Origin: an uncultured Bacteroidota bacterium
GTDB lineage: Bacteria; Bacteroidota; Bacteroidia; Flavobacteriales; Flavobacteriaceae
NCBI GenBank assembly: GCA_902622575.1
Contig: CACNQJ010000004.1
Coordinates: 1-64,000, forward strand
Direction of reading: 5' to 3'
DNA: 64,000 nt
Each line of letters starts with the position of its first letter. The stretch's first letter is position 1. The translations under genes and the position numbers were made by a program. Shown in pieces: positions 2,676 through 30,935 of the stretch. The notes beneath the pieces are model-generated. The model saw nothing but the letters and a program-made list of their open reading frames with translations. It made no database searches and had not been told where the DNA came from.

Positions 2676-3155
2676 ATGTCAAAGTTCAAAAAAAAAGGTA
2701 GCGGAGAATTACCAAAAATATCAACAGCATCACTTCCCGACATTGTATTTATGTTATTATTTTTCTTCATGGTTGCTACTGTTTTAAGAGATAATACCTT
2801 AATGATTCAAAACACATTACCAGCTGCTGATCAAGTGCAAAAATTAGATAAAAAAGATAGAGTTATTTACATATATGCAGGTAAACCCAGTGCTAGATAT
2901 CAAGATAAGTATGGAAATCAACCAAGAATTCAGTTAAACGACAAATTTGCAACAGTTTCTGATGTTGGTGCTTATGTACTTGCTGAAAGAGCATCCAAAA
3001 GAGAGGAATTACAAAACGTGTTAACTACAGCACTAAAAGTTGATGGTGAAACAAAAATGGGGTTGATTTCTGATATTAAACAAGAATTAAGAAAAGTAAA
3101 TGCCCTAAAAATCAACTACACCACAAGAATCGGAGATTACACTCAAAACAATTAA
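2676..3155 (+). CDS. exbD: ExbD/TolR family biopolymer transport protein (second copy)
   Basis: This 159-residue ExbD paralogue has a basic cytoplasmic start (KFKKKGSGELPK), a single membrane helix at about residues 20-38 with the conserved Asp (SLPDIVFMLLFFFMVATVLR), and a periplasmic domain without cysteines. Two unequal ExbD proteins behind one ExbB is a recurring Bacteroidota arrangement. Known ExbB-ExbD complexes contain an ExbD dimer, so a heterodimer is plausible but not shown. No tonB gene lies in the operon. Confidence 0.9.
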   Translation: MSKFKKKGSGELPKISTASLPDIVFMLLFFFMVATVLRDNTLMIQNTLPAADQVQKLDKKDRVIYIYAGKPSARYQDKYGNQPRIQLNDKFATVSDVGAYVLAERASKREELQNVLTTALKVDGETKMGLISDIKQELRKVNALKINYTTRIGDYTQNN

Positions 3156-3195
3156 TCATCCTCCTTTTTATTTATCTTAGTTGTAAAAAAATATT

Positions 3196-3858
3196 GTGCG
3201 CAACTTAGTATTGATTTTTATATATCTAATGACAATCAACCTGGGTTTTTCCCAAAAGGATTTTCAGAAATACAGAGAAGATCAAATTTATTTTAGTCTT
3301 TATTACAATTCATTGGGTGGTAAATTTGATAATTTTAAAGAAAACAAGTTTTCAAGCAGTTTTAATATTGGATTTATAAGGGATGTTCCATTATCTCGCT
3401 CTGGAAAATTTGCATTAGGATTTGGAGCGGGTATAGGATTTAATTCCTTTAATAATAATATTAAATTATCCTCATCTAATATTTTATCATTTGAACTGCT
3501 TTCTAGCAGAGATATTCCAAAAAAAAACACGTTTAATTTCAGTGAAATTCAAATCCCCCTTGAAATAAGGTGGAGAAATTCATCTATATCTAATTATAAA
3601 TTTTGGAGAATTTACGCTGGTTTAAAGTACTCGAGAATTTTACAATCATCTTACACGTTTGAATCTTATGATGAAAATTACAATCACAAGAATCTGCCAA
3701 TAAATCTTGATCAATTAGGTTTTACATTAAATGTAGGTTACAACACTTGGAATATTGGTTTGTACAAATCTTTACGACCATTTTTTAATAAAAATTTAGA
3801 TTCATTTCCTCAGGAATTAGAACAATTCAAATTGGGTCTAATTTTTTACATATTATAA
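3196..3858 (+). CDS. PorT-like outer-membrane beta-barrel protein
   Basis: The GTG start at 3196 gives a clear Sec signal peptide (MRNLVLIFIYLMTINLGFSQ, residues 1-20), the reason for choosing it. The remaining 200 residues are alternating polar/aromatic strands typical of a small 8-stranded barrel: FSSSFNIGFIRDVPLS, GKFALGFGAGIGFN, EIQIPLEIRWR, YKFWRIYAGLKYS. It ends with a hydrophobic strand and an aliphatic terminus (LGLIFYIL). It resembles the porin/PorT-like proteins that follow exbD in Bacteroidota. It begins 40 bases after exbD and is probably the last gene of that operon. It need not be the T9SS PorT itself. Confidence 0.8.
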   Translation: MRNLVLIFIYLMTINLGFSQKDFQKYREDQIYFSLYYNSLGGKFDNFKENKFSSSFNIGFIRDVPLSRSGKFALGFGAGIGFNSFNNNIKLSSSNILSFELLSSRDIPKKNTFNFSEIQIPLEIRWRNSSISNYKFWRIYAGLKYSRILQSSYTFESYDENYNHKNLPINLDQLGFTLNVGYNTWNIGLYKSLRPFFNKNLDSFPQELEQFKLGLIFYIL

Positions 3859-3909
3859 ATTAGATTTGTATTTTTTGCGAAATTCACCAGAATAGGGGTA
3901 AAAAAATAA

Positions 3910-3936
3910 TTGTTTTATAAAAATCCCTTATATTTA
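3910..3936 (+). promoter_or_regulatory. Probable Bacteroidota promoter of the TonB receptor at 3977
   Basis: TTG at 3910-3912 and TATATTTA at 3929-3936 with a 16-base spacer, 40 bases before the start codon. The last base differs from TAnnTTTG and the spacer is short, so the call is moderate. Confidence 0.4.
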
Positions 3937-3976
3937 CCGATTATATAAACAACTTAAAAAAACTAAATTTTTTATC

Positions 3977-6880
3977 ATGAAAAGAATTTTGTCCCTGATG
4001 GCTGTATTACTAAGTACATTCATCTTCGCACAAACTAATGTTTCAGGAACTGTAGTCGATGAAGACAACAACCCTATACCTGGAGCTAATATTGTTTTTG
4101 ATTCCACAACCGGAGCAGTAGCTAACTTCGATGGTGAGTTTTCTTTAACAGTAAAACAAAATCCACCTTTTAATGTTACTGTTTCAAGCGTTGGTTTTGA
4201 AACCACAACTTTACAAGTAGGTTCAAATAATATGGTTATGACAGTAGTCATGAATGAGTCTCAAAATTTATTGGACGATGTAGTCATTTCTGCATCCAAA
4301 GTTCCTCAAAGACTCTTTGAATCACCTGTAACAATTGAGAGGTTTGATTACAAAGATATTGCGCAATCAACCGGAGCTGATTTCTACTCAAGTCTTGAAG
4401 GACTGAAGGGAGTTCAAATCAATAGTGGTGGATTGTTATTACAGACTGTTAGCACTAGAGGTTTCTCTACAGTATATAACGAAGGTTTTGTTCAACTTGT
4501 TGATGGTATGGATAATGAGGCCCCTGGCCTGAGTTTTTCAGCTGGTAACCTCGTGGGTATGAATCAACTTGATATTTTTGGAGTTGAACTACTTCCAGGT
4601 GCAGCATCAGCGTTGTATGGTGCTAATGCATTTAAGGGTATTTTGCTTATGACAAGTAAAAATCCATTTGATTTTCAAGGAACAAGTGCATATTTTACCA
4701 ATGGTGTTACTTCGCAAGATGTTTCAGGAGATAATCACTATTATGATTTAGGTGTTCGTTTTGCTAAGGCTTTCTCCGATAAGCTTGCTGTAAAAGCAAC
4801 TGTTAGTTACGTTGAAGGATTGGATTGGGGTGCAGATGATAAAAGTGATATAAATAAGCCTCAAGGCACATTCATCCCAGGAACAAGTGAGGAAGTAGAC
4901 CCATCTACTTTTCCTGACTACGTAGGAGTTAATGTTTATGGAAGTCAAGGAGTTAATTTAAATATGACTAGCACATTCTTAGGTTCAGTTGTGCCAGCAT
5001 TAGTTCAGGCAGGTCAAGTAAGTGCCGCAGGTGCTGCTCAAATTAATGCTATTGTTGGTAATTTTGCTCCAAATTATTTTGGATCGCAATTGCTCCAAAC
5101 AACTGGGTACTCTGAATTGGATTTAACAGACGGAATTGCCTCAAGTTTTAAGATTGATGTTGCAGCTCATTATAGATTCAATGGAAATTCTGAACTGATA
5201 TATAATTCAAAAATTGGTACAGGAAATACAATTCTTCATGCAACCAATAGGAATATGTTAAAAAACTTTATGTTACAGCAACATAAAATTGAATACAAAA
5301 CTCGAAATTTAAACCTAAGAGCTTACACTAGTATAGAAGATGCTGGAAATACACATGATCTTTCAGCGTTAGGTGGACGAATTGCAAATGCTCAACCCGG
5401 CGGAATTATTAGTGGATGGGCGCCAGCATATCTGCAGGGTTATTTTTTAAACTTATTTGGTCAAATTAATCCAAATCCAGTAGCTGCTCTTAACACAGTT
5501 TTAGGAGGTATTTTATTTGGTGGTGATACCAGTATGTTTGACAGATATGTAACTCCAAAAATGAATTATCTGGCTCATGCTTTTGCTAGAGGAGAAGCTG
5601 ATAAAAATATGTTATTGCCTGGCTCAGATGCTTTTAAACAAGCATACTTTAATGCTACAACCACTCCAATAGCTGAAGGAGGTGCTGCAATTAAGGATAA
5701 TTCAATGAGTAATAATTTTGAGGTTAGCTACAATGCATCTGATCTCGTAAATGGATTTGATCTTCAGCTTGGAGCTCAAGCACGTCAATATGTTCTAAGG
5801 TCTGGAGGATCATTATTTACTGATTATGACGATCCAATCAAGTTTAGCCAACTGGGTGTATACACTCAAGTACAAAAAGATTTATTTGATGGTATTGTTA
5901 AATTAACAGGTTCTATGAGATATGATAAGAGTCAATATTTTGATGGTCAATTTACACCAAGAATTGGTGCATTAGTTTTCTTGTCACCAAATCAAAACTT
6001 TAGATTTTCTTATCAAACAGGCTTCCAAAACCCATCATCACAAGACCAGTATATAGGATTGGATGTTGGTAGAGCAGTTTTAATGGGATCATCACCTGAC
6101 AGTATCGATCGATTCAAAATGTCATTTGTTGGTTCTAACTTCAACCAATATACAATTACCGGAAATATGGTTTTTGCTAACTCTTTACTGGCTAATGAGT
6201 TTTTAGCGGGTGAGTTTGTTGCTGCTAACTTAGATCCAGTAGAACCTCAGCATGTTATGTCTAGGGAATTTGGATATCGATTAAACGGTAAAAAGGTGTC
6301 CGTTGATGTTAGTGCATACTGGAGTGATTTTTCTAATTTTATCGCTGCAAAAAATGTTATTGTTCCTATGTATGGAAGTTTAGCTAATGGATCAGCATTA
6401 GCAGCATTAGCTGCTGGTGATTTCAAAGTATTTAGTGTTGATAACAACACTAATGAAAAGGTCTCAACTATGGGTGTGACTGTGGGAGTTGAAACCAAAA
6501 TTATTGATAAGTTCGATTTCGGAGTTACGGGAAGTTATAACCAAATGGATAGATCCAACATAGACCCAAATTTCGATACTGGATTTAATACACCTAAGGT
6601 CAGAGCTAAATTTAGTTTAGGTTCAACTCAATTAGCTGATAATTTTGCTTTCAATCTTTCTGCTAGATATCATAATGCATACCTGTGGGAGTCAACATTT
6701 TTAAATGGTGAAATTCCTGCAATGTGGACATTTGATGCAGCTATGAATTTCGATGTTCCTGAACTGAATAGTAAAATAAAAGTAGGTGCAGTAAACCTTA
6801 CTGGACAGGATTATAAAATGATGCCTGGTTCTGGGATGATTGGTAGTCAGTACTATGTCACATTTACTTTAAATCCGTAG
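3977..6880 (+). CDS. TonB-dependent receptor with N-terminal carboxypeptidase-regulatory-like domain
   Basis: The 967-residue outer-membrane receptor starts with a signal peptide (residues 1-18, ending IFAQ). A carboxypeptidase D regulatory-like domain follows (about 20-95: SGTVVDEDNNPIPGANIVF). A TonB-box/plug region comes next (about 100-230: DDVVISASKVPQ, SLEGLKGVQINSGG, GVELLPGAASALYGANAFKGIL), then a beta-barrel ending in YYVTFTLNP. The architecture is SusC-like, but no susD-type lipoprotein follows: a terminator and atpD come next. The substrate cannot be deduced. It has its own promoter and terminator and is monocistronic. Confidence 0.93.
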   Translation: MKRILSLMAVLLSTFIFAQTNVSGTVVDEDNNPIPGANIVFDSTTGAVANFDGEFSLTVKQNPPFNVTVSSVGFETTTLQVGSNNMVMTVVMNESQNLLDDVVISASKVPQRLFESPVTIERFDYKDIAQSTGADFYSSLEGLKGVQINSGGLLLQTVSTRGFSTVYNEGFVQLVDGMDNEAPGLSFSAGNLVGMNQLDIFGVELLPGAASALYGANAFKGILLMTSKNPFDFQGTSAYFTNGVTSQDVSGDNHYYDLGVRFAKAFSDKLAVKATVSYVEGLDWGADDKSDINKPQGTFIPGTSEEVDPSTFPDYVGVNVYGSQGVNLNMTSTFLGSVVPALVQAGQVSAAGAAQINAIVGNFAPNYFGSQLLQTTGYSELDLTDGIASSFKIDVAAHYRFNGNSELIYNSKIGTGNTILHATNRNMLKNFMLQQHKIEYKTRNLNLRAYTSIEDAGNTHDLSALGGRIANAQPGGIISGWAPAYLQGYFLNLFGQINPNPVAALNTVLGGILFGGDTSMFDRYVTPKMNYLAHAFARGEADKNMLLPGSDAFKQAYFNATTTPIAEGGAAIKDNSMSNNFEVSYNASDLVNGFDLQLGAQARQYVLRSGGSLFTDYDDPIKFSQLGVYTQVQKDLFDGIVKLTGSMRYDKSQYFDGQFTPRIGALVFLSPNQNFRFSYQTGFQNPSSQDQYIGLDVGRAVLMGSSPDSIDRFKMSFVGSNFNQYTITGNMVFANSLLANEFLAGEFVAANLDPVEPQHVMSREFGYRLNGKKVSVDVSAYWSDFSNFIAAKNVIVPMYGSLANGSALAALAAGDFKVFSVDNNTNEKVSTMGVTVGVETKIIDKFDFGVTGSYNQMDRSNIDPNFDTGFNTPKVRAKFSLGSTQLADNFAFNLSARYHNAYLWESTFLNGEIPAMWTFDAAMNFDVPELNSKIKVGAVNLTGQDYKMMPGSGMIGSQYYVTFTLNP

Positions 6881-24148: not shown

Positions 24149-26233
24149 ATGAAAAACATATACAGTATAATTTTAGGATTAGTCCTAATATTAAATATAA
24201 ATAACATAAATTCACAAGAGGCTACAAATGATACCATTGTGCCTGTATCATTACAGGAAGTTGTTGTATCAACACCATTTAATGAGTCTCTTCAAAATAA
24301 CGTAATAAGCGTAGAAAAGGTTAATTTGGGAGACCTTGGTTTTTTAAAAAGTCAGTCAATTCCTAAAGCTCTTTACAATGTTCCAGGAATATCTTTTATA
24401 ACTACTGGCCCAGGCATACAAAAGCCAATAATAAGAGGATTAAGTGGTAATAGAGTTGTAACTGTTTATCAGGGAATTAGATTTGAAAATATGCAGTGGG
24501 GTGATGAACATGGACTAGAGATTCATTCATCTGGAATTTCATCCATTGAAGTTATAAAAGGTCCTATGTCAGTACTCTATGGAAGTGATGCAATCGGAGG
24601 TGTTCTATATATAACACCTGAAAAGTATCTCTCAGATAATGATTTAAATGTAGATATTGAAAGTTTATATAACTCTAATTATTCTGGTTTGAATACATCT
24701 GTTGGGTTAAATACAAAAATTAATAAATTTAGTTTGCTTGCTAGAGCTAGTATAATTGACAACGGAGATTATGAAAATGCTGATGGCGTGGTTGAAAACA
24801 CTTGGGCTGAAATGTCAGACTTTAAATTTGGTTTAGGTTTTGAATCAAAAGGCTTTGAATCAGACTTAAGATTTAATTATACCACAACAAAATTGGGAAT
24901 ACCACATGAGGAAGAACATGATGATCACGATGGTGACCATGATGATGATCATGATGATGATCATGATGATGAGCATGAGGAAGAAGAGGAAAGTTATCAG
25001 GAATTAGAAAACACCATTATTAGTTGGAAAAACTCTTTAAAGTTTAATAATAAATCTGAACTACAAGTTACTTTAGGTCTATCTGATAACTTAAGAAAAG
25101 AGTTTGGACATCATGAAGAGCATGGTGATCACGATGACGATCACGATGACGATCACGATGACGACCATGATGATGATCATGATGATCACGATGATCATGA
25201 GGGGGAAGCTCATATCGACATGCAACTTCAAACCACATCATTAGATTTTAAATACCTATTTCCAAAAAGCGATAAGTTTGAGTTTATTTTAGGTGGAAGT
25301 ATTTTAAATCAAGAGAATAGTAATTTTGGTGAAGAGGAATTGATTCCTAACGCTGAGAAGCAAGATATAGGTTTTTACGGTATATCACATGTACACTTAA
25401 ATAATTTAGACTTAATGGTTGGATTTAGAGGTGATCAGAGAGATATTCAAACACATGATTTTTCTAAATCCTACTCAAGCTTTACTTCATCTATCGGTTT
25501 AAAGAAAAATATTGGAGACTCTTCAAATTTTAGACTTAATTATGCTACTGGATACAGAGCTCCAAATTTATCTGAACTTTTTGCTGATGGAATACACCAT
25601 GGGGTAGCAAGATATGACAAGGGAAATGACATGCTTTCAGTAGAAAAAAGCAAACAAATAGATTTTGCATTTAATACTTTTAACGACAAGACAAATTTTG
25701 GAGTAGATTTTTTCTTTAATTCACTTGATAATTACATATACATCAAACCTTCAGGTCAAGAAATGAAGGGTATGCCACTATATAATTATACTCAGGAGGA
25801 TGCTAACCTTTTAGGATTAGAATTTACAATCTCAGGAAAAACAAATGTAGATTGGCTTACATACAACGCATCTATCGAGTACTTACAAGGGAAGGTTAAA
25901 GATGGAGGTGGGTTTTTACCATTTATTTCTCCATTAACATTGAAATTAGATTTTGATTTAGACTTTAAAAAAGCTGGAATGTATGAATTAGGCTTCTTAT
26001 CTAAAGCAACTCAAAATGACGTTGCAGATTTTGAGACTATAACTGAATCTTATAGCCTTGTTGAAATATCGGGTTCTTACATGTTAAATATGGCAAATAA
26101 TAATTTAAATTTATTTTGGGCAGTTTCAAACTTATTTGATAAAGAATATGTTGATCACTTATCCCGACTAAAAAATTTAAATCTTCATGATGTTGGAAGA
26201 AATATTTCGGTTGGTTTAAAATATTCATTTTAA
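24149..26233 (+). CDS. TonB-dependent receptor with His/Asp-rich loops, probable zinc receptor (ZnuD-like)
   Basis: The 694-residue outer-membrane receptor has a signal peptide (to about 22), a TonB box (SLQEVVVSTPF), a plug (KALYNVPGISFITTGPGIQKPIIRGLSGNRVVTVYQG, in part; IEVIKGPMSVLYGSDAIGGVLYI) and a barrel ending LKYSF. Two loops, residues about 252-280 and 320-352, are almost pure His, Asp and Glu (repeats of HDDD and HDDHD). ZnuD-type zinc receptors carry His-rich loops, so zinc (or copper) uptake is the best guess. The His/Cys protein upstream supports this. A terminator follows. Confidence 0.92.
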   Translation: MKNIYSIILGLVLILNINNINSQEATNDTIVPVSLQEVVVSTPFNESLQNNVISVEKVNLGDLGFLKSQSIPKALYNVPGISFITTGPGIQKPIIRGLSGNRVVTVYQGIRFENMQWGDEHGLEIHSSGISSIEVIKGPMSVLYGSDAIGGVLYITPEKYLSDNDLNVDIESLYNSNYSGLNTSVGLNTKINKFSLLARASIIDNGDYENADGVVENTWAEMSDFKFGLGFESKGFESDLRFNYTTTKLGIPHEEEHDDHDGDHDDDHDDDHDDEHEEEEESYQELENTIISWKNSLKFNNKSELQVTLGLSDNLRKEFGHHEEHGDHDDDHDDDHDDDHDDDHDDHDDHEGEAHIDMQLQTTSLDFKYLFPKSDKFEFILGGSILNQENSNFGEEELIPNAEKQDIGFYGISHVHLNNLDLMVGFRGDQRDIQTHDFSKSYSSFTSSIGLKKNIGDSSNFRLNYATGYRAPNLSELFADGIHHGVARYDKGNDMLSVEKSKQIDFAFNTFNDKTNFGVDFFFNSLDNYIYIKPSGQEMKGMPLYNYTQEDANLLGLEFTISGKTNVDWLTYNASIEYLQGKVKDGGGFLPFISPLTLKLDFDLDFKKAGMYELGFLSKATQNDVADFETITESYSLVEISGSYMLNMANNNLNLFWAVSNLFDKEYVDHLSRLKNLNLHDVGRNISVGLKYSF
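24917..24979 (+). repeat. Coding tandem repeat, His/Asp loop 1
   Basis: A degenerate 12-base unit GATGATGATCAT inside the receptor gene encodes DDDH repeats (residues about 257-277). It is imperfect at the edges. Confidence 0.8.
25121..25200 (+). repeat. Coding tandem repeat, His/Asp loop 2
   Basis: A 12-base unit GATCACGATGAC, changing to GATGATCATGAT/GATCAC variants, encodes HDDD and HDDHD repeats (residues about 325-351) in the same receptor. Codon use differs from loop 1, so the two repeats expanded separately. Confidence 0.8.
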
Positions 26234-29057: not shown

Positions 29058-29528
29058 ATGGGAATAAGCTATTATACAAAAGAAGGTCTGGATAAACTAA
29101 GATCCGAGCTTAATCATCTTAAAGATGTTGAAAGGCCGAATGCTTCAAAAGCAATAGCAGATGCGCGAGATAAGGGAGATTTGAGTGAAAATGCTGAGTA
29201 TGATGCTGCAAAAGAGGCTCAAGGTTTACTTGAACTCAAAATTTCAAAACTCGAGGAAATACTTTCAAATGCTCGATTGATTGATGAATCACAGTTGGAT
29301 ACATCAAAAATTTTAGTTCTTTCGAAAGTAAAGATCAAAAATAAGACTAATGGTGCAACTATGGAATATCAACTCGTTGCTGAAAGTGAGGCAGATTTAA
29401 AAAGTGGTAAAATTTCTGTAAACTCACCTATTGGAAAAGGTCTTCTAGGTAAATCTGTTGGTGATACAGCTGAAATAAGTGTACCCAATGGGACACTAAA
29501 ATTTGAAATCATTTCAATTAATAGATAA
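29058..29528 (+). CDS. greA: Transcription elongation factor GreA
   Basis: GreA rescues backtracked RNA polymerase by stimulating transcript cleavage. The start is ATG 29058 (MGISYYTKEGLDKLRSELNHL); the frame from 29022 would translate the promoter and leader. The 156-residue protein shows the N-terminal coiled coil with the acidic tip (ARDKGDLSENAEYDAAKEAQG, in part) and the FKBP-like C-terminal domain (ISVNSPIGKGLLGKSVGDTAEI). The HIT gene follows after 2 bases. Confidence 0.97.
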   Translation: MGISYYTKEGLDKLRSELNHLKDVERPNASKAIADARDKGDLSENAEYDAAKEAQGLLELKISKLEEILSNARLIDESQLDTSKILVLSKVKIKNKTNGATMEYQLVAESEADLKSGKISVNSPIGKGLLGKSVGDTAEISVPNGTLKFEIISINR

Positions 29529-29530
29529 AA

Positions 29531-29923
29531 TTGTCGTCAATATTTTCTAAAATAGTTAATGGTGAAATACCTTGTTATAAAATAGATGAGGATGATAAAT
29601 GCCTAGCTTTTTTAGATATTAATCCAAATTCACAAGGTCATACTTTATGTATATTAAAGAGAGAGGAGGATTATATTTTTGATTTAAAGGACGATGAGTA
29701 TGTTTCTCTTATGAATTTTTCAAAAAAAATAGCAAAAGCCATAAAGAAGTCGGTAAATTGTAAAAGAGTTTCGATGACAGTTGTTGGACTGGAGGTTCCT
29801 CATGTTCATGTTCATTTAATTCCAATTAATAAAATGGAAGACTTAAATTTCTCAAATAATTTGGATTTAGATAAAAATAGTTTCAAAGAGGTTTGTAATA
29901 AAATAAAAAGTAATTTAGATTAA
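29531..29923 (+). CDS. HIT family nucleotide-binding protein
   Basis: The 130-residue histidine-triad protein begins with TTG at 29531, giving the standard opening (MSSIFSKIVNGEIPCYKI). The triad is HVHVH at residues 91-95. Related HINT enzymes hydrolyse AMP-lysine or AMP-lipoate phosphoramidates. It is 2 bases behind greA and 2 bases ahead of the DUF3127 gene, in one operon. Confidence 0.95.
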   Translation: MSSIFSKIVNGEIPCYKIDEDDKCLAFLDINPNSQGHTLCILKREEDYIFDLKDDEYVSLMNFSKKIAKAIKKSVNCKRVSMTVVGLEVPHVHVHLIPINKMEDLNFSNNLDLDKNSFKEVCNKIKSNLD

Positions 29924-29925
29924 TT

Positions 29926-30297
29926 ATGAATATATCAGGAAAAATTAAGTTAATTGGAGAAACCAAAGAATATGGTGCTAACGGTTTTAGAAAAAGAGAG
30001 CTGGTAGTCACTACTCAGGAACAGTATCCACAGAACATATTGGTTGAATTTGTTCAAGATAGATGTGAAATTTTAAATTCTTTTCAAGCAGGAGAATTAG
30101 TTAAAATTGACATTAATATAAGAGGAAGAGAATGGACTAATAAAGATAATGAGGTTAAATATTTCAATTCTATTCAAGGTTGGAGAATTGAAAAAATTGA
30201 AGAAAGTTTTGACACACAACTACCTCCGATGCCAACAAAAGAAGAACTAAATTCCGATCAGGAATCCAATAAGGAACCTGATGATCTTCCATTTTAA
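29926..30297 (+). CDS. DUF3127 OB-fold-like protein with SSB-type acidic tip
   Basis: The 123-residue protein matches DUF3127 (MNISGKIKLIGETKEYGANGFRKRELVV, in part; ILVEFVQDRCEILN; GELVKIDINIRGREWTNKDNEVKYFNSIQGWRIEK, in part). The strand pattern resembles a single OB-fold like SSB. A short acidic linker rich in Glu/Pro/Asn leads to the terminal DDLPF (119-123), identical to the tip of the SSB at 15922. It probably binds nucleic acid and recruits the same partners as SSB; this is inferred. It lies in the greA-HIT-aat operon. Confidence 0.88.
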   Translation: MNISGKIKLIGETKEYGANGFRKRELVVTTQEQYPQNILVEFVQDRCEILNSFQAGELVKIDINIRGREWTNKDNEVKYFNSIQGWRIEKIEESFDTQLPPMPTKEELNSDQESNKEPDDLPF

Positions 30298-30302
30298 TAG
30301 TC

Positions 30303-30935
30303 ATGGTGCGATTGGGTGATGATTATGTTTTTCCCTCACCAAGAAGTGCGAATCAGCTTGGAGTTGTTGCTTATGGTGGAGATCTTCATCCAGATAGAAT
30401 ACTTGAAGCCTATAAAAATGGAATTTTTCCATGGTTTGAATCTGATGATAATTTAATGTGGTGGAGTCCTGATCCTAGAATGATTTTATACCCTGAGAAT
30501 ATTAAAATTTCAAAAAGCTTAAGCTCATTTATTAAAAAAACCCCTTTAAAAGTTACTTTTAATAAAGATTTTGAAGAGGTAATTGAATCATGTTCAAACA
30601 TAAAAAGATTTGGTCAAAATGGTACATGGATAACCAATGGGTTGAAAGATTCGTTTATTAAACTTCATGAAAAAGGTTTGGCATTTTCTGTTGAGGTGTG
30701 GGAAAAATCACAAATTGTGGGTGGTTTGTATGGATTAGACTTAGGTGATATTTTTTGTGGAGAAAGTATGTTTTCAAAATCAACAAATTCCAGTAAAATT
30801 GCATTAGTATACCTAGCAGAGGAATTAAAAAAAAATAATTACCGGTTCATAGATTGTCAAATTCCTACTGAACACCTGAAAAGTATGGGTGGTGAGGAAA
30901 TTTCAAGGGATGAATTTTTAAAATTAATTATTTAA
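30303..30935 (+). CDS. aat: Leucyl/phenylalanyl-tRNA--protein transferase
   Basis: Aat adds Leu or Phe to N-terminal Lys or Arg to create degradation signals read by ClpS/ClpAP. The 210-residue protein has AYKNGIFPWFESDDNLMWWSPDPRMIL (in part), NGTWI, EVWEKSQIVGGLYGLDLGDIFCGESMFS (in part), SKIALVYLAEEL and DCQIPTEHLKSMGG, all family hallmarks. It ends in a 12-base convergent overlap with truB. Confidence 0.97.
   Translation: MVRLGDDYVFPSPRSANQLGVVAYGGDLHPDRILEAYKNGIFPWFESDDNLMWWSPDPRMILYPENIKISKSLSSFIKKTPLKVTFNKDFEEVIESCSNIKRFGQNGTWITNGLKDSFIKLHEKGLAFSVEVWEKSQIVGGLYGLDLGDIFCGESMFSKSTNSSKIALVYLAEELKKNNYRFIDCQIPTEHLKSMGGEEISRDEFLKLII

Follow-up and report, generated by a model that had tools for sequence, protein, structure and literature searches.

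The window (the whole 64,000-nucleotide stretch of DNA that was analysed) carries on its forward strand an intact open reading frame (29926..30297) that starts with ATG and encodes a protein of 123 aa with the C-terminus ...QESNKEPDDLPF. Its original assignment to the DUF3127 family holds (residues 3-89 match PF11325 at 98.7 bits, the cut-off being 27), and the full-length protein (residues 1-123) also aligns with positions 1-117 of the profile phrog_4932 (2.9e-41), which is named "single strand DNA binding protein". The same profile is matched by the DUF3127 proteins of Blattabacterium (L135) and of two genomes that we take to be Walczuchella (G334, locus L121) and Uzinura (G338, locus L104). 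The window protein, which we propose to be a short divergent SSB, is predicted to comprise a single OB-fold domain (residues 1-90, 29926..30195; AlphaFold2 model and Foldseek) and a disordered acidic linker of low pLDDT (residues 91-118, 30196..30279), followed in the translation by the tip DDLPF (residues 119-123, 30280..30294). The Trp70 codon (30133..30135) aligns with the tryptophan of the RKW motif of an SSB of solved structure (hmmsearch alignment to 7f25). The canonical SSB of the same genome (15922..16359, forward strand; 145 aa; PF00436, 3.4e-32) ends in ...SQVDDLPF, and both translations thus finish, as had been noticed in the preliminary description, with the same five residues. The DUF3127 gene belongs to a conserved forward-strand run that begins with greA (29058..29528; PF03449, PF01272), with a gene for a HIT-domain protein (29531..29923; PF01230) directly upstream of it and aat, encoding leucyl/phenylalanyl-tRNA protein transferase (30303..30935; PF03588), directly downstream; Pfam matches agree with the names first given to these three neighbours. 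Elsewhere in the window (24149-26233), a TonB-dependent receptor (PF00593, PF07715) contains long His/Asp-rich stretches in its barrel region, suggestive of metal capture.

The common five-residue ending is not a matter of chance here, because such endings are so rare among the ORFs of the window and of related loci. Just two of the 67 window ORFs of at least 80 aa end in PF, namely the DUF3127 protein and the SSB, and across 160 related loci (1890 ORFs of at least 80 aa) an ending of the form [DE][DE][LIVMF]PF occurs in exactly one ORF in 141 loci and in two ORFs in none. Conservation of the tip within the family, on which the preliminary description had made its case depend, is evident across the phylum and also in phages. 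In a phylum sample retrieved with a family model that stops short of the tip, 78 of the 80 DUF3127 proteins have a terminal PF preceded by acidic residues; these loci were hand-picked for spread among the matches listed, with two second copies included, and the two exceptions are the second DUF3127 copies in G321 and G329. These tipless second copies (L402, L403) might be phage-derived or specialised. Among 100 distinct chromosomal DUF3127 proteins (a set obtained after dropping a masked protein, L114, a canonical SSB, L088, picked up at 6e-6, and duplicate sequences) the PF end is found in 97, all three exceptions coming from genus g162, and it recurs in 79 of 84 viral proteins, ranked by a tip-containing query. 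The residue preceding PF is variable (L, V, M, C, A, I, F and R among those listed). All 80 named genome loci end in DDLPF, and this set, ranked by a tip-containing query and hence biased, is not counted as evidence of conservation. In genus g162, symbionts with genomes of ∼0.2 Mb, the tip is lost in three of the six readable copies; the DUF3127 linker of this genus is enlarged into long Asp-rich and Lys-rich tracts. The copy in G350 (L106, reverse complement about 3351-3390) contains a run of 39 A in frame and still keeps the DDLPF end. Some Flavobacteriales genomes carry extra PF00436 SSBs (L091, L092, L093) that have no tip at all.

The body of the protein was assessed using an AlphaFold2 model built on an alignment of 70 relatives. 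Mean pLDDT is 93-97 per block of ten over residues 1-90, where strands 2-10, 14-16, 21-30 and 37-43, a helix (44-52) and strands 58-71 and 77-90 follow one another in OB order, and it is 49-61 per block of ten over residues 91-120, as expected of a disordered tail. The single OB-fold body suggested earlier is therefore supported by the predicted structure. The comparison of this fold with SSB that had been proposed along with it points the same way: at E ≤ 0.001, 68 chains of the PDB were returned by Foldseek, of which the best 50 are all SSBs. The TM-scores are modest (0.37-0.51 by query length), and the disordered tail probably accounts for part of this. In structural re-alignment (VIA-align), the SSBs (Z of about 9.0) tie with PriB (1woc, Z 9.2, rmsd 3.0, 74 residues aligned; 1txy, Z 9.2). 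A distant sequence relation to SSB exists beyond the tip: hhalign comparison of the OB-region profiles of DUF3127 and SSB, with both tips trimmed, yielded probabilities of 89.6% and 93.0% (E 1.9e-6 and 3.4e-7) as against 0.1% and 0.2% for the reversed-sequence controls. PF00436 did not match the window protein even at E up to 1, a single DUF3127 sequence found no match among the solved structures, and the three best matches of a DUF3127 profile among solved sequences, all of them SSBs, were weak (E 0.023-0.29). The column that corresponds to the RKW tryptophan, which we take to be the W88 of E. coli SSB that stacks on ssDNA, is occupied by W, Y or F in all 100 chromosomal proteins and in 78 of the 80 proteins of the phylum sample. 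Overall, the tip-trimmed sequence kinship, an OB fold with the topology of SSB, the disordered linker and the acidic xPF tip fit DUF3127 into the SSB superfamily in the wide sense.

The order greA-HIT-DUF3127-aat is conserved in Flavobacteriaceae (greA in 67, HIT upstream in 71 and aat downstream in 70 of the 80 named loci), which could speak for an OB protein that binds RNA in transcription or translation, is linked to these genes and owes its retention in symbionts to this link. Such a role would agree with weak matches to IF3, all below threshold (E 0.11, and E 0.86 against solved sequences). We nevertheless consider it improbable, as none of the three genes is found near DUF3127 in any of 27 symbiont loci, the phage copies lie among recombination and replication genes (see below), the tip is the peptide by which SSB docks its partners, and SSBs supply the nearest profiles and folds. 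In the phylum sample, HIT (14), aat (18) and greA (12) accompany DUF3127 in a minority of the 57 loci assessed; the other 23 of the 80, which had no tblastn match to the window DUF3127, were left out of the neighbour counts. The functional tie to these three neighbours that the gene order had initially suggested is thus not supported, and a role linked to these genes was dropped since symbionts retain DUF3127 without them. The symbiont neighbourhood differs from that of free-living relatives: DUF3127 is located behind a FeS_assembly_P (DUF59) gene in L135 (region 2734-4020; by Pfam) and behind similar ORFs, recognised by eye, in L138 (region 3642-3959) and L121 (region 3321-3671).

Among 296 genomes of the phylum, DUF3127 is present in 171 and SSB in 293; the three in which SSB is missing are draft assemblies, two of them with DUF3127 (G024, G220) and one with neither (G136). 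Within the window's class, among the matches listed and with G000 included, DUF3127 was found in 72 of 73 genomes and SSB in 73 of 73. The only one of 14 control genomes to contain DUF3127 is Bacteroides ihuae. A markedly different pattern emerged in insect symbionts of the Flavobacteriales family f64 (37 genomes, G332-G368), which was searched for both protein families: DUF3127 is present in 33 of the 37 genomes and SSB, over the cut-off, in just one (G335). The latter is the 1.3 Mb genome of a Geopemphigus symbiont, its locus being 100% identical to the named locus L137. The 36 reduced genomes of the family (0.2-0.6 Mb) contain no SSB, while 32 of them have DUF3127; the remaining four (G336, G342, G352, G358) have neither, even with a symbiont DUF3127 profile included in the search. 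A profile of 12 Flavobacteriales SSBs, run at E up to 10 against 45 genomes, detected a true SSB only in G000 and in the Geopemphigus symbiont (G335, of which G378 is a duplicate), and the 19 further genomes that it matched were hit solely at the DUF3127 gene. Named records exist for strains of Blattabacterium cuenoti (L135, L136) and for Bostrichicola ureolyticus (L138); genus g163 was taken as Blattabacterium, as 12 of 12 checked loci align over ∼6 kb with L135 at 78-81%, and G333 shows full identity with the Bostrichicola locus across 6.3 kb. In 23 other genomes of the same order, SSB was found in 20 and DUF3127 in 22. Three of these, of 1.7-1.9 Mb (G325, G373, G328; 97-99% complete), have DUF3127 and PriA and no SSB over the cut-off, and may represent further cases of SSB replacement outside the symbiont family.

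The same genomes bear on the tie with PriB seen in the structural re-alignment. PriB is itself related to SSB and is of about the right length, and DUF3127 might accordingly be a PriB-like primosomal protein, an SSB-derived OB-fold dimer whose task would be to assist PriA in helicase reloading and not to coat DNA in bulk. PriA (PF17764), present in G000, the Geopemphigus symbiont (G335), G325, G373 and G328, was however over the cut-off in none of the 39 reduced symbiont genomes (the 36 above plus three named records), most of which retain DUF3127. Moreover, DUF3127 keeps the acidic tip, unlike PriB, which to our knowledge has none. Given the lack of PriA in genomes that retain DUF3127, a PriB-like role was no longer preferred and appears to us unlikely. 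DnaG was detected in 30 of 40 genomes, and its candidacy as the single essential partner of the tip was likewise abandoned, DUF3127 being kept in several genomes with no detected DnaG.

The loss of SSB alone does not prove its replacement, since four of the 36 reduced genomes have neither protein, and Carsonella and one branch of Portiera lost ssb unreplaced, along with other replication genes (according to PMC2175510 and PMC5322561, respectively). This precedent for unreplaced loss, together with the tipless half of the readable g162 copies, lends some support to the view of DUF3127 as an SSB-derived accessory that mimics only the tip, e.g. to compete for the partners of SSB, its retention in genomes devoid of SSB being incidental to genome decay. 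Such a competitor would have no purpose once SSB is gone, yet fold and tip persist in Blattabacterium: the DDLPF end is found in 20 of 20 copies, and the OB region has a median dN/dS of 0.12, indicative of purifying selection (19 sequences give 171 pairs, of which the 158 with dS from 0.05 to 1 were used; L136 was left out of the pairs and counted for the tip). A bystander or a competitor of SSB is disfavoured because DUF3127 is kept, tip included, under purifying selection after the loss of SSB, and we assign this view the lowest likelihood of the alternatives, i.e. very unlikely. The symbiont pattern is the strongest argument for an SSB role.

In the open-licence literature on Blattabacterium, Sulcia and DUF3127, we found no paper that reports the loss of SSB or tests DUF3127. 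PMC3971599 gives the replication genes of Walczuchella as Pol III subunits and gyrase, PMC2768785 describes dnaA as missing in Blattabacterium Bge, whose replication is thus unusual, and the word ssb is absent from both; beetle symbionts are said to retain replication genes in PMC10284843, where the word ssb is absent from the main text.

DUF3127 also occurs in mobile elements: tblastn located it in 122 phage records, mostly of Flavobacteriaceae phages, and in four plasmid records. Its neighbours in phages include genes of recombination and replication, e.g. those for an Erf annealing protein, a YqaJ exonuclease and a primase in P12024L, RecT in phi19:3, RusA and a DNA polymerase in Fpv5, a primase/helicase and NinG in lillamy9-1, and NinG in Gundel_1. 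No SSB over the cut-off was found on the 32 viral contigs with DUF3127 that belong to records of at least 26 kb (out of 85 viral loci), records that may be fragments, and the four weak SSB matches on these contigs all fall on the DUF3127 gene. Other Flavobacterium phages carry a canonical SSB. The reading of DUF3127 as an SSB is partly anticipated by phage annotation, phrog_4932 and the RefSeq name of the phage copies both being "single strand DNA binding protein"; this label is an annotation, and no experiment on any DUF3127 protein was found in the open-licence literature. PMC8004638 describes an SSB of a Pantoea phage in which a DUF3127 superfamily match lies beside a regular SSB domain. 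Outside the reach of the phage annotation are the proposed chromosomal role and the likely status of sole SSB in symbionts, the latter an unexpected consequence.

Based on the predicted fold, the tip-free distant sequence relation to SSB, the conservation of the tip, the presence/absence patterns and the purifying selection, all of which are shown here, we put a probability of roughly three in four on the reading of DUF3127 as a short divergent SSB that is a second copy in most Bacteroidia and the sole SSB-like protein left in Blattabacterium-related symbionts, among them those of cockroaches and scale insects, where it would coat ssDNA. A stronger version sees in DUF3127 an ancient second SSB of Bacteroidia, sufficient alone for chromosome replication; the family of Blattabacterium, Walczuchella, Uzinura and Bostrichicola would then have discarded SSB and would replicate on DUF3127 only. 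This version seems to us somewhat favoured, albeit with less confidence. Mechanistically, each subunit of a probable dimer or tetramer would coat single-stranded DNA with its one OB fold, the flexible linker would display the same acidic DDLPF tip as that of SSB, and partner enzymes could dock alike on DNA coated by SSB or by DUF3127. In symbionts, DUF3127 would most likely coat the single strands formed in chromosome replication, with a presumed role at the fork, and in Bacteroidota phages it would take the usual place of the phage SSB. The lead taken from the window is real and well supported. Its central proposal of a second, specialised SSB-like hub is supported with regard to the single OB fold, the acidic linker predicted to be disordered and the conserved SSB docking tip; "specialised" is doubtful for a protein that is the only SSB-like one detected in symbionts.

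SSB is counted among the proteins indispensable to every bacterium, and if a protein of "unknown function" has indeed cleanly taken its place in nature, this would explain how these symbionts replicate. It would also imply that two SSBs sharing one docking tip are at work in most Bacteroidia, and would allow the truly indispensable parts of an SSB to be tested directly. In addition, a likely role is hereby assigned to a gene found in 72 of the 73 sampled genomes of the window's class.

A precedent is ORF6 of phage Enc34 (DUF2815), a DUF protein with an OB fold and an unstructured C-terminal segment that was shown to be an SSB (PMC5686142); its OB fold is of the T7 gp2.5 type, and it is likened to DUF3127 as a precedent and not as a relative. 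The phage proteins of phrog_4932, labelled as SSBs, belong to the same family as DUF3127, as judged by the full-length match. PriB shares with DUF3127 an SSB-derived OB fold and an equal structural score, but its partner PriA is absent where DUF3127 persists. The canonical SSB (PF00436, TIGR00621) has in common with it the single OB fold, the disordered linker, the acidic xPF tip, the Trp of the RKW motif and a distant sequence relation beyond the tip, whereas the OB region of DUF3127 is roughly 15-20 residues shorter and beyond the reach of PF00436. Finally, second SSB paralogues within one genome are known, such as SsbB of Bacillus, and these are members of PF00436; compared to them, DUF3127 is far more divergent, and it outlives the main SSB in reduced genomes.
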